Positions 1,905-7,779 of a stretch of DNA of 64,000 nucleotides are shown here, piece by piece. The stretch spans positions 1 to 64,000 of the forward strand of contig NZ_JAAAKZ010000012.1 in assembly GCF_009905605.1 (NCBI RefSeq), given 5' to 3'. Position 1 is the first letter of the stretch, and each line of letters opens with the position of its first letter. Source of the DNA: Runella sp. CRIBMP (lineage in GTDB: Bacteria > Bacteroidota > Bacteroidia > Cytophagales > Spirosomataceae). The position numbers and the translations under genes were made by a program. Below the pieces are notes generated by a model. That model saw only the letters and a list, made by a program, of their open reading frames with translations, was not told where the DNA came from and made no database searches.

Positions 1905-2710
1905 GAGTTACCCATTTATCCTATCCAGCGCAATTGGCAAGCTAACGCCCACAAGGGCAAACACGTAGAAAAGCTCCAGTTACCTGAGTTTCGGAAACCA
2001 AGTGCAACTTAAGGTAGATGGAGGGTAGCTCGTAAGGGATGGTACGTAGCACCACACCCCATAGAAGACCGAACTGATTGTAGTCGATGACCATTAAAAC
2101 ATGTTTTATAAATTATGTTGCAGGTCTGAAAGACATGATTAATTAGGTTGAAGCTATTTTAGAGATAGCCATTCATCCTCCAGCACTCTACCTTCGCAAA
2201 TTTTTTGGTTATTATTCGCTTAGGTAGCTCCGTACGAATCAGATCCTAAAAAAGACAAGGCACAGTGTATATCACTGTGCCTGTACTACTATACTCAACG
2301 TTATGAAAAATTTTTATATCCGAAAAATGACTCTATGCTATCGAGGCATGAGGAATTTTGTTCGGAACTACTTAGGAAAGAATCGTCGTTTATTTACGGT
2401 AAGTCACCCTTTTTGTCGCTTTAACATCCCCTCTGTCCCTCCATCTCAGCGAAAAAAAACTACTTAATTATTTTGTTTTTGTTAAGTGAAACCGAGAATA
2501 TATGTATTAACAATTATTTTTAAGAATGTGTTTTAATTGACCATTTTTTTTTACAAATATATGTTAAAACTCATATTAATCTGTTCCTATATAATGAATC
2601 GTGTTTTTTTTTATATGAAAGCTATGAAAATTTGAATGGATGCCTGAAAATCAATAAAAGCTGTTTATTTTTGATGAGTGCCTTTTTTACTTAGAAAATT
2701 AACTTATCTA
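1905..2710. other. Long intergenic stretch, probably partly decayed sequence
   Basis: About 800 bases separate the permease from the first LytTR regulator. I find no full gene. It holds a perfect 10-bp inverted repeat (2258-2282), a 54-codon open frame at 2303-2467 (starts MKNFYIRKMTLCYRG) of unknown value, and on the minus strand a 50-codon frame around 1946-2098 (starts MVIDYNQFGLLWG). Neither resembles a family I recognise, and both could be relics of decayed genes. The last 250 bases are very AT-rich. At 2666-2673 lies TATTTTTG, a match to the Bacteroidota -7 element, which would place transcription start near 2680. Confidence 0.5.
2258..2282 (-). terminator. Perfect inverted repeat, terminator-like on the minus strand
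   Basis: AGGCACAGTG (2258-2267) pairs exactly with CACTGTGCCT (2273-2282) over a 5-base loop. Read on the minus strand it is followed shortly by CTTTTTT, as in an intrinsic terminator, but no clear minus-strand gene lies upstream of it, so it may be a leftover of a lost gene or an operator. Confidence 0.4.
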
Positions 2711-3430
2711 ATGAAGAATAAATTCGCTGCTCTTATTGTGGAGGATGACCCTGTTGCGGAGGCAGAATTGACTCTTTATTTAGGTAGAACAAATATGTTT
2801 GAGAAACCTACTGTTTTTACCTCAGTAATGGAATCCTACAGCTATCTCGTCGGTCAAACGGTAGACATCCTTTTTTTAGACCTTGAGCTACGCGATTTTT
2901 CAGGGTTAGAACTATTAAGGCTTATTGAAAGCCCACCACCCGTCATCATTACGTCTTCCCATGTCGAACTAGCCATTGATTGTTTTGAGTTTGACGTGGC
3001 TGATTTCCTAAGTAAACCTTACTCTTATACCAGATTGTTGCGGGGTATTCATCGTGCAATCCAAAAACAACCCTCCACCCATATCTCAGGAGAAGATGCG
3101 TCATTAAAAAAACATATTTTTTTACAGACAGGGCGTGCCTCGGAGCGGTTTGAGTTAAATGATATTTTATACATCGAAGCCTACGGCATTTATGTAAAAG
3201 TAATAACAAAATCGGGGGTTTCAGTTGTCAACCAAATAATGTCAAGTATAGAAAAGGACCTTCCGCCCACCTCTTTTTTGAGAGTTCACCGTTCTTTCTT
3301 AATTAATCTTGAACATCTCAATAGAATCGAATCCAATGACCTGTGGGTTGGTAGTTATCAAATTCCGATTGGCTTGTCACACAAAGATAAGGTACGTCAA
3401 ACACTAAAAAATAATGGGATACTTGATTGA
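2711..3430 (+). CDS. LytTR-family response regulator (paralogue 1)
   Basis: A 239-residue two-component response regulator. Residues 5-120 form a receiver domain: acidic pair in VEDDP (11-13), phosphoacceptor Asp57 in LFLDLEL, TSS at 81-83 and Lys102 in SKPYS. Residues about 134-235 form a LytTR DNA-binding domain (DILYIEAYGIYVKV, FLRVHRSFLINL). The open frame could begin at a GTG at 2678, but I prefer the ATG at 2711, because it gives MKNKFAALIVEDD, matching the paralogue at 5630, and because a TATTTTTG promoter element at 2666 would start the transcript near 2680. The gene is convergent with the sensor kinase and their 3' ends overlap by 34 bp. LytTR regulators usually control small sets of nearby genes; its targets here are unknown. 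Confidence 0.93.
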   Translation: MKNKFAALIVEDDPVAEAELTLYLGRTNMFEKPTVFTSVMESYSYLVGQTVDILFLDLELRDFSGLELLRLIESPPPVIITSSHVELAIDCFEFDVADFLSKPYSYTRLLRGIHRAIQKQPSTHISGEDASLKKHIFLQTGRASERFELNDILYIEAYGIYVKVITKSGVSVVNQIMSSIEKDLPPTSFLRVHRSFLINLEHLNRIESNDLWVGSYQIPIGLSHKDKVRQTLKNNGILD

Positions 3431-4737
3431 ATTTTTCGGCTAGGGACTGTAAAATAAAAGGTACTGCCTTCTCCTTCAAGGCTAGTTGCCCATAATTCTC
3501 CCCCGTTTTTACGAACAAATTCCTGGCTTATCCAAAGTCCCATTCCGTTACCTTTTTCTCCATTTGTACCGAGTATACTTGAACGGGAAGCGCCCGTTAG
3601 GACCCTTTCTAAATCCTCTGCCCCAATCCCAATACCCTTATCCTGAATCGAAATGACTGTTTTATCAGATTTTTCTTCCGCTTCAATGATAATTTTGCTC
3701 GCAGGGAAGGAAAACTTAACTGCATTACTCAATAAATTCCTCAAAATCAACTGCAAATGATTTTCATCACCCCATCCTAAGGTTCTGGTAGGCACTTTAT
3801 TGAGCACCTGCATCTGTTTAGCATTTATTTCCTCCTTTTGAAAAAGAATAGCTTCTTCCACCACTTCCCTGATGGGTATCTCAACAACAACACTTTTGTA
3901 TCCGCTCAGCTGCAAATTTGCCCAATTCAATAAATTACTCAGCAGCAGGCCTACATCTTTAGTTTTAAAATCTATTTCATTAATAATCTGCTTAGATTGC
4001 TCTACAGTGAGGTCACCTTCATTGAGCCGTCTAATGGTTGACTGCAAATGATACAGAGGAGCGCGAAGGTCATGACTGATTACGGCAAATAACTGGTCTT
4101 TGTACTGATTTATTTCCTGCAAATCAACCGTCTGCTGAGATAGTTGTTCATTTCTCTTGATTAACAACGCCTGAAATTGTCTAAAAATTGACTTATTAAA
4201 ATAGACGCAAACACAGATAAAAAAATAACAAACTATAAAATTCACAATTACTGAATAGTAATTACCTTAGGTCCAACCCAGAGATATATCTTTGATAACC
4301 AACACAATAACCCAATAAACCGCTACATTAAACACAATTGCCGCTGCTTGAAGATACCTATCAAAAAGTACCATGCCCATGGCGGATAGGCCAATAACTA
4401 CGATTTGCAAATCATCGATTTTGCCCAAATTCTGATTATAAACGGCAACTGATATTAAAATGAAGTGGGTAACCGCAAATATGTAAACAAAACTAACTCG
4501 GTAATGGTATGCTTTAAGCATTAAATAAAGTGGTAAATTTATAATGGCAAAAACAACCATTAAAATAACCGTAATGGTCCCATCTCCCCAAAAAAAATCC
4601 ATCAAAGAAAGAACAATCTGTAACACTAAACAGCAGATATTAAGCACATTACATAAAAGAATACGCTGTTCATCCAATGGCGATAAGCTAGGGTGTACCC
4701 CTGTAGTACATAGGTTTTTCCAAGACAAATTTTTCAT
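3397..4737 (-). pseudogene. Sensor histidine kinase split by one in-frame UAA codon
   Basis: Two pieces in the same frame make one ordinary 447-codon kinase. The upstream piece (4737-4267, starts MKNLSWKNLC) carries several membrane helices and ends …DISLGWT. A single TAA at 4267-4269 follows, and the frame then continues without break as GNYYSVIVNFIVC, another membrane helix, into a HisKA domain (phosphoacceptor His near position 222 in VISHDLRAP) and an intact ATPase domain (NLLSNAVKF, DKGIGIG, GNGMGLW). All catalytic boxes are present, so the damage is one codon, consistent with a recent nonsense mutation, a read error, or readthrough. The downstream part could also be initiated alone from GTG at 4245 as a soluble or single-helix kinase. 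It lies between two LytTR regulators on the opposite strand, which are its plausible partners. Confidence 0.8.
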
Positions 4738-5629
4738 AATTATACTCTTTTTCCGACGCCCAATGTAACCCATAGGGATATATACGTCAATAAATGTTCC
4801 ATTCGACGCATTATACTCAACGTAGTCATAAGATGAGGCCCTTAAAGAATGAAATTGTGCTATCTTCTTAAATTCACTGAAAAAGAAAAAACTTAAAAAA
4901 AAAGCACAAACAACCATCCCAAGATTCGTGTTAGGATGTTATGGATACGTTCATTTCACCAAAAATGAACGTACAAAAGCATAACTCAAAAACTTAGTTA
5001 AACTTTGGCAGAGAGAAAGGTTGACTAACAACCAAGTAGGGAAAAAGAAGAGGAGAAACGATGATTAAACAAATCACCAACAGGCATCCTACCAAAACAC
5101 GAACTAATCGCTCAAAAAGGTTCATTATATGAGGGTTACTAGAGATGTATTATGTTTTTTTGATAACAACCACTTATTAGACCTCTCCAAGGATTTTTCT
5201 AAATATGCCTTTTAACCGCATTTTCAGAATGGGATGCTACTTGCGTATATTTTCTCAATAAAATTTAGCCTCTAGTTAAAGATTATTATTCGAAAAACCA
5301 AAATATATCTTGGATTCATTAAACAATGCCGTAATTTATTTGGCACGTTTTGTTTTGAATTCACTAAGAAGTTTGATAATAATTTGAGGAAGTATAAGTA
5401 AGGTAAAGTGCTGGTACAAAAATACATTGGGTATTTTTACCATTCATAAAATACTAACGAACAAGACCTTTTTTTATGTAAAACCTACAATTAAATATAT
5501 AAATGAGTAAAATAAGGCAGGTTAAAGTTAAAAAGCTTTGCTATATTAACGCATCCATTCTTTTTTGAGATACTATTTTCTGATTATTTTTTAAGCATAC
5601 TATTAATATATACATATTTATTCAACGAT
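4738..5629. other. AT-rich intergenic region between kinase and second regulator
   Basis: About 890 bases between divergent genes. An open frame runs from 4917 into the kinase, but its first 60 residues look like translated noise. The region contains the inverted repeat at 4946-4973 (see separate entry). No gene, tRNA or clear promoter consensus is seen in 4980-5629; short open frames of about 20 codons there are not convincing. Confidence 0.6.
4946..4973. promoter_or_regulatory. Inverted pair of LytTR-like half sites
   Basis: TACGTTCATTT (4946-4956) is mirrored exactly by AAATGAACGTA (4963-4973). Each arm contains TACGTTCAT, which fits the published LytTR binding consensus [TA][AC][CA]GTTN[AG][TG] as I remember it. 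It lies about 210 bp upstream of the kinase start and 660 bp upstream of the second LytTR gene. Known LytTR operators are usually direct repeats, so an inverted pair is atypical; it could also be a plain hairpin. Confidence 0.4.
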
Positions 5630-6352
5630 ATGGAACATAAACTTGTCCCTTTAATTGTAGAAGATGACCCACTTGCTCAAAAAAGCCTAGTCTATCTCCT
5701 CACTAAAACCAATATGTTTGAAGACGCTGTTGTGTGTGGAACAGTTACCGAAGCATTTGAATATCTGAATAGAAAAACGGCCGATCTAATTTTTTTAGAC
5801 ATTGAACTTCCTGATCTGTCTGGGTTAGAGTTATTGAAACTATTTCCAGCACATGCGCCAGTCGTTGTTACTTCTTCACACGTAGAGTTAGCGGTGGATT
5901 GCTTTGATTTTGATGTTATTGACTTTCTTACAAAACCTTTTTCTTACACCCGTCTTTTAAAATCTATCCAACGTGCCACTAAAAAAATGCCAAGTCAACA
6001 AGTTATTGCGGAGAAAACACCCGTTAAAAACTATGTTTTCCTTCCAACAGGCCGCTCAACGGTTCGATTTAATTATAGCGACATCCTGTACATTGAAGCT
6101 TACGGCGTATACGTTAAAATTGTCACTCCAGAGGGTACAGTAGTGGTAAACCAGATGCTCTCAAACATTGAAGAGGTATTGCCTCAGGAGCCATTTATAC
6201 GAATCCATCGCTCGTTTATTGTAAACATGAATCATATCAATCGTATCTCTTCCAATGAGCTGAGAGTCAGCACCTACTTTCTTCCCATCGGGATGTCTTA
6301 CAAAGATAAAGTAACACAAAAACTAAAAAGCAGTGGGTTACTCAGTGAATAA
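5630..6352 (+). CDS. LytTR-family response regulator (paralogue 2)
   Basis: A 240-residue response regulator with the same plan as the one at 2711: receiver domain with VEDDP at 10-14, phosphoacceptor Asp57 in IFLDIEL, TSS at 81-83 and Lys102 in TKPFS, then a LytTR DNA-binding domain (DILYIEAYGVYVKI, FIRIHRSFIVNM) over about 134-236. Long identical stretches such as TSSHVELA and SYTRLL show that the two regulators are recent duplicates. The gene points away from the split kinase towards the secreted hydrolase at 6487, 134 bp downstream, which may be a target or part of the same transcript. Function is inferred from family membership; the signal is unknown. Confidence 0.93.
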   Translation: MEHKLVPLIVEDDPLAQKSLVYLLTKTNMFEDAVVCGTVTEAFEYLNRKTADLIFLDIELPDLSGLELLKLFPAHAPVVVTSSHVELAVDCFDFDVIDFLTKPFSYTRLLKSIQRATKKMPSQQVIAEKTPVKNYVFLPTGRSTVRFNYSDILYIEAYGVYVKIVTPEGTVVVNQMLSNIEEVLPQEPFIRIHRSFIVNMNHINRISSNELRVSTYFLPIGMSYKDKVTQKLKSSGLLSE

Positions 6353-6486
6353 AAACTTACTCTTTAGTTTGATTTTCACTTCTAACCCTTGTTTCTGACT
6401 ATCCATTAGCTCTATAATTCATCGGGGTCCAGTTCTTCATATCGTTTGTCCCTTAATTTATATTTTCCTTATCCAAATAACCTTTT

Positions 6487-7779
6487 ATGAAAAAAAAAAC
6501 CTTTTTACTCTCTCTATTGGTCTTTGCCCAGTGTTTTCTTGTTGATAGCACTTACGCCCAAACAAATTTTGTAAATGGTGATTTGCTTCCTGATGCCCCT
6601 GAACTCTCAGCGAGGGGCAAGTATAACATTGGGGTCCAAACCCTGAAATTGGTCAACAATAATCAGTTGGATGTACTCCATTCAAAAAACGGGAAGGACT
6701 CCCTCTATAATCGTCCTTTAACCGTAGAAATTTGGTATCCTGCCATCATTCCGTCAGATAAGCAACAACTCGTAGAATATGACCAGGTACTTGGCTCTAG
6801 TAATGATCCCAAAAGGCCATTAATCCCATTCAAATTTATGGGGCGGGCTTTACGCAATGCCCAAGCCGACAAGACCGAAGGGCCCTACCCTCTCTTAATT
6901 GTCTCTCACGGCTACTTAGGTTCTCGGTATTTACTTACTTACCTGACCGAAAACTTAGCTTCCAAAGGCTATATTGTCGTGGCCATTGACCATACAGAAT
7001 CTACCTTTAGTGATGCGGCAAGTTTTGCCAGCACATTACTCAACCGTTCGCTCGATGACTTGTTTGTTCTCAATGAAATGGCTCGATTGGGGAATAAAGA
7101 AAGTAAAACTTTTTTGTCTGGGTTGGTAAACGCTAACAATACGGCTTTGATTGGCTACTCAATGGGTGGTTATGGGGCACTCAATGCCGCTGGTGCGGGT
7201 TACAGTGCCCAAGCCGTAAAGTTTTTTGGCCAAATGACAGGCGGTAGCAAGGCCTTAGAAAAAAGGATGTCAGGAAATGCTGCCTTTTCGGCTTCCCTTG
7301 ACCCGAGAATCAAGGCAGTTGTCGCTTTTGCGCCTTGGGGAATGGAGCGGGGCGTTTGGGATGCTGAAGGACTAAAAGGGCTTACCGTCCCTACATTTTT
7401 TGTTGCAGGCAGTCAAGATGATATTTCAGGATATGAGAAGGGAATCAAGGCCATCTACGACGGAGCAATCAACGCCGACCGTTATATGCTAACCTACATT
7501 AATGCCCGTCATAATGTAGCTCCCAACCCTCCACCAACCGAATCTATCACGCCCGGCCTCCCCCTTGATGAATATTTGCGATATGCTGAACCTGCTTGGA
7601 ACGAACGTCGTATCAATAATATCAATCAGCATTTTGTAACGGCGTTTTTAGGCGTACAACTCAAAGGCTTAGACTATAAAAAGTATTTAGAGTTAAAAGA
7701 GAATTCTAATGAAGCAACATGGACTGGATTTAAACCTCGTACGTCAGTGGGCTTGGAATTAAGACATGCCAAACCTTAA
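6487..7779 (+). CDS. Secreted alpha/beta hydrolase (dienelactone hydrolase / PAF-acetylhydrolase-like)
   Basis: A 430-residue protein with a signal peptide (residues 1-25, ending STYAQ). The catalytic fold is seen from about residue 130: an oxyanion-hole segment SHGYLGS at 140-146, the nucleophile elbow GYSMGG with Ser225, a FAGSQD-type strand (VAGSQDDISG) expected to carry the acid, and a late His in NARHNVAPN. This arrangement is typical of dienelactone hydrolase-like esterases and the platelet-activating-factor acetylhydrolase group; export suggests action on an external ester. It follows the second LytTR regulator in the same direction and ends at a strong bidirectional terminator. The substrate is not known. 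Confidence 0.85.
   Translation: MKKKTFLLSLLVFAQCFLVDSTYAQTNFVNGDLLPDAPELSARGKYNIGVQTLKLVNNNQLDVLHSKNGKDSLYNRPLTVEIWYPAIIPSDKQQLVEYDQVLGSSNDPKRPLIPFKFMGRALRNAQADKTEGPYPLLIVSHGYLGSRYLLTYLTENLASKGYIVVAIDHTESTFSDAASFASTLLNRSLDDLFVLNEMARLGNKESKTFLSGLVNANNTALIGYSMGGYGALNAAGAGYSAQAVKFFGQMTGGSKALEKRMSGNAAFSASLDPRIKAVVAFAPWGMERGVWDAEGLKGLTVPTFFVAGSQDDISGYEKGIKAIYDGAINADRYMLTYINARHNVAPNPPPTESITPGLPLDEYLRYAEPAWNERRINNINQHFVTAFLGVQLKGLDYKKYLELKENSNEATWTGFKPRTSVGLELRHAKP

Follow-up and report, generated by a model that had tools for sequence, protein, structure and literature searches.

Among described systems, two come closest to the locus considered here. In sensor kinases of the HisKA/HATPase_c type (PF00512, PF02518), both catalytic domains follow a multi-helix membrane part, an arrangement that the Runella kinase shares. 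The ICDS and recent pseudogenes reported from bacteria (PMC1852416, PMC11078800) combine a conserved gene, a single in-frame stop and intact counterparts in relatives; an appreciable fraction of such interruptions nevertheless prove to be errors, as did 28 of the 73 interrupted genes resequenced in M. smegmatis (PMC1852416). Compared with the latter group, nothing essential differs in Runella, except that its kinase has also lost the native stop codon. Compared with the former, its membrane part belongs to no Pfam family, was found in four Runella genomes only and, in the source genome, is cut off from the kinase. By its appearance, the locus is an ordinary gene loss, recent on the evolutionary scale, rather than a novel form of sensor control. 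We consider it likely, with a probability of roughly 0.7, that a sensor histidine kinase with six helices, restricted to the genus, was put out of action by a recent nonsense mutation in this species or strain of Runella.

The gene lies on the minus strand of the window, i.e. the whole 64,000-nucleotide stretch that was analysed, which belongs to contig 4 of the source genome (G000, a Runella draft of 7.13 Mb in 55 contigs). Positions 3397-4737 translate as 447 codons from an ATG at 4737, a start conserved in three relatives, with a TAA at 4267-4269 (codon 157) as the single internal stop; the residues KDISLGWT precede it and GNYYSVIVNF follow. Both the phospho-acceptor and the ATPase domain are recognised by Pfam above cut-off and both are encoded 3' of the TAA (HisKA, PF00512, 27.3 bits versus a cut-off of 26.9; HATPase_c, PF02518, 84.7 versus 26.4), whereas Pfam has no match for the membrane part. 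Hydropathy of the ortholog of Runella aurantiaca predicts six hydrophobic segments and puts codon 157 into the loop that joins the fifth to the sixth, such that the stop does fall inside the membrane domain, as the first-pass annotation had proposed. What remains in front of it (4270-4737, minus strand) is an N-terminal fragment of 156 residues with five predicted membrane helices and no Pfam match. A structure prediction of the intact ortholog, built from three sequences, reached a mean pLDDT of 37 and was not taken as evidence. On either side of the kinase gene lie two plus-strand genes for LytTR-type response regulators: RR1 (2678-3430, its conserved start probably being the ATG at 2711), which is convergent with the kinase gene and overlaps its end with its own 3' end, and its paralog RR2 (5630-6352), which is 97-98% identical in three relatives.

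Does this frame represent one interrupted gene or two that happen to be adjacent? Orthologs of the kinase were found in three of the 12 other Runella genomes, namely R. aurantiaca YX9 (G001), Runella sp. C1_MAG_00075 (G010) and G004, and in each of them the gene is a single open frame of 436 codons, situated in the same neighbourhood and flanked by the same two LytTR regulator genes; the other matches at E <= 1e-30 in the 12 genomes are paralogs with 29-36% identity. Because the full interrupted frame aligns without gaps to these single ORFs (85-87% protein identity, about 88% at the DNA level), its two halves are one gene and not chance neighbours, which together with the translation bears out the earlier proposal of one histidine kinase frame running from 4737 to 3397 and cut by a single in-frame TAA. 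Sensor and kinase thus form one polypeptide in the three relatives, but are parted in the source genome, and homologues that consistently encode the two parts as separate genes, the case that would have spoken against an interruption, were looked for and not found among these orthologs. Where a Lys, Gln or Glu codon had been anticipated at 4267-4269, all three orthologs have Tyr, one substitution away from the TAA of the source genome; with the frame unbroken in all of them, the TAA is therefore a private single-base change.

The stop at codon 157 is accompanied by another change at the opposite end of the gene. In the three orthologs the kinase terminates at a stop codon falling at window positions 3429-3427 (minus strand), at which the source genome has a Gln codon, and its frame consequently runs on for 10 residues into the antiparallel end of RR1. 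Of the gene span originally assigned, 3397-4737, the end at 3397 is itself a product of alteration. The base changed in the native kinase stop also sits in the stop codon of RR1, which is TGA in the source genome and TAA in the relatives and so remains a stop. Taken alone, the loss of the native kinase stop is mild; however, it brings the private stop-codon changes in the kinase to two in the source genome, with none seen in the other three. At 3427-3430 the convergent genes have overlapping stops, with one base serving those of both kinase and regulator in the relatives.

How dispensable is such a sensor? Its membrane part was detected in four of 200 genomes of the family, every one of them Runella, and the stop in one of those four; in a further genome (G005), both LytTR regulators are separated by about 0.7 kb that contains no kinase ORF. 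From this distribution, together with the kinase-less locus, it follows that the sensor appears to be young or often lost, and dispensable. Beyond RR1, that same locus (L078, G005:C4:4488000-4500000) contains, by eye, ORFs resembling a restriction-modification subunit and a helix-turn-helix regulator, and its surroundings are perhaps a mobile region. A plasmid search returned nothing. When genes interrupted relative to two of the relatives were counted, the kinase was the sole case among the eight matched ORFs in each comparison, a baseline (8 of 62 ORFs in one relative and 8 of 63 in the other matching the window) too small for a genome-wide rate; so few match because gene order breaks further along.

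Selection was assessed with a codon model (own script) fitted to the kinase and three neighbouring genes from the four Runella genomes. Over the whole kinase, dN/dS on the source branch was 0.161 (95% CI 0.103-0.251) versus 0.134 elsewhere (P = 0.55), and a simple two-rate mixture for the whole gene allows at most about 14% of that branch to have been unconstrained. Split at the stop, the downstream part gave 0.095 on the source branch (CI 0.049-0.187) versus 0.118 elsewhere, and the upstream part 0.308 (CI 0.139-0.713) versus 0.160, a rise that is not significant (P = 0.18). The picture was unchanged under all three tree shapes. Among the neighbours, overall dN/dS was 0.04 for RR2, 0.06 for the gene at 6487 and 0.16 for RR1, the last reaching 0.24 on the source branch, again without being significantly raised (P = 0.19). 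Taken over the whole gene, dN/dS on the source branch is not raised, and an event too young to have left its mark would give the same result. Since dN/dS on the branch is still low, the interruption is a recent one, unless the kinase part continues to be used.

Nonsense loss is favoured because all three orthologs in the same neighbourhood are intact and have Tyr at codon 157, because both stop-codon changes are private to the source genome, because the gene appears dispensable (four of 200 genomes, and G005 lacking it), and because the genome has many other histidine kinase matches (52 at E <= 0.001, the interrupted kinase counted among them); a late event fits the limit of about 14% on the unconstrained share of the branch. 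A single substitution sets the TAA at codon 157 apart from the Tyr codon of the orthologs, and a second one has removed the native stop. According to this scenario, translation from the ATG at 4737 would end past the fifth membrane helix, yielding a 156-residue fragment devoid of the catalytic domains, and the kinase would be lost. The two neighbouring LytTR regulators would either be left without this input or receive signals from one of the genome's many other kinases. Of the three options raised by the first-pass annotation (a very recent loss, a sensor controlled by readthrough, an assembly error), loss is therefore the best supported, given the intact orthologs, the single substitution and a branch dN/dS well below 1. 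What speaks against it is that the gene shows no decay past the two stop changes, i.e. no frameshift, catalytic domains that are still recognisable and a dN/dS of 0.095 for the kinase part; a kinase part that is still used, or a wrong base in the assembly, would look alike. The reading is based on one isolate of the species. If correct, it provides a clean case of sensor kinase loss inside a genus, the two neighbouring regulators having been kept, and its main use is as an annotation note: a probable pseudogene.

Could the stop simply be a one-base sequencing or assembly error in an intact gene? That a single base is affected, in a draft of 55 contigs, and that constraint on the kinase is otherwise normal would agree with this, as would the M. 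smegmatis precedent mentioned above. Nevertheless, the other private stop-codon change, at the far end of the kinase gene, suggests a real change, and, without amounting to proof, the genome has an estimated completeness of 99.99% and contamination of 0.02%, the stretch around 4267-4269 is not a homopolymer, and the front part of the kinase occurs just once in the genome. We regard such an error as improbable. Readthrough of the UAA, whether programmed or regulated, which would supply a small amount of full-length sensor, could draw on the frame being open on either side of the stop and on both parts being constrained over the branch as a whole. However, none of the three orthologs has the stop, TAA is the stop used most often in the window (ending 30 of 40 long open stretches), and none of 39 tRNA matches carries a TTA anticodon, in a set that stems from scoring 150 of 383 candidates and lacks tRNAs that must exist, such as Leu-UAA. 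In addition, the RNA flanking the stop is no more stable than its shuffles (z +0.99), and Rfam gave no match in window positions 2000-7000. The earlier suggestion of a readthrough-controlled sensor accordingly found no support, and we give it hardly any credence.

It is also conceivable, if unlikely, that the gene is split and yet useful, with ribosomes initiating at a GTG at 4245, in frame and eight codons past the stop, either after terminating at the TAA or de novo. The resulting ORF (3397-4245, minus strand) would comprise HisKA, HATPase_c and, in front of them, the sixth helix without its first residues, and would thereby release a helix-anchored kinase from its sensor. In line with this, the dN/dS values in front of and behind the stop follow the pattern expected if the kinase alone were selected, and the codon at 4245 is GTG in all four genomes, within codons 152-173 (window 4219-4284), the longest run of the gene without synonymous change among them, which spans both the stop and the GTG (21 counted codons; permutation and simulation put P at about 0.01, for a coincidence noticed after the fact). 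We read this frozen run as no more than a hint of a free kinase. Against it, the rise in the front part falls short of significance, as given above, and a control OmpA-like gene has an even longer unchanged run (27 of 501 counted codons). Nor was a Shine-Dalgarno-like stretch seen by eye at the usual distance from the GTG, and the Bacteroidota-type promoter was not matched in full within the first 800 bases of the kinase gene or roughly 260 bases upstream in any of the four genomes. Moreover, the GTG is a Val codon in the intact relatives, and so did not arise for an internal start. A more elaborate variant, with two working products (a five-helix membrane protein plus the kinase from GTG 4245), codons 152-173 as a start or control element and a kinase-only form predating the split, strikes us as very unlikely. 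Were a kinase-only form nonetheless true, it would show a split-off, constitutive kinase arising from one base change. An overlapping gene in another frame was considered as the cause of the frozen codons and rejected, there being no long open frame (the longest has 43-44 codons). Just past the stop, at 4246-4263, a perfect 7-base inverted repeat with a 4-base loop is visible by eye in all four genomes.

The two parts of the kinase gene also differ in their tree signal: the part after the stop groups the source genome with G010 by about 34 log units, the part before it slightly with R. aurantiaca, by about 3 log units, a disagreement that suggests recombination within the gene. Finally, window positions 2001-6000 are A+T-rich, with 34-37% GC in 2-kb blocks versus roughly 40-48% elsewhere in the window; this stretch holds RR1 and the kinase, both of which vary more between species than the flanking genes do.
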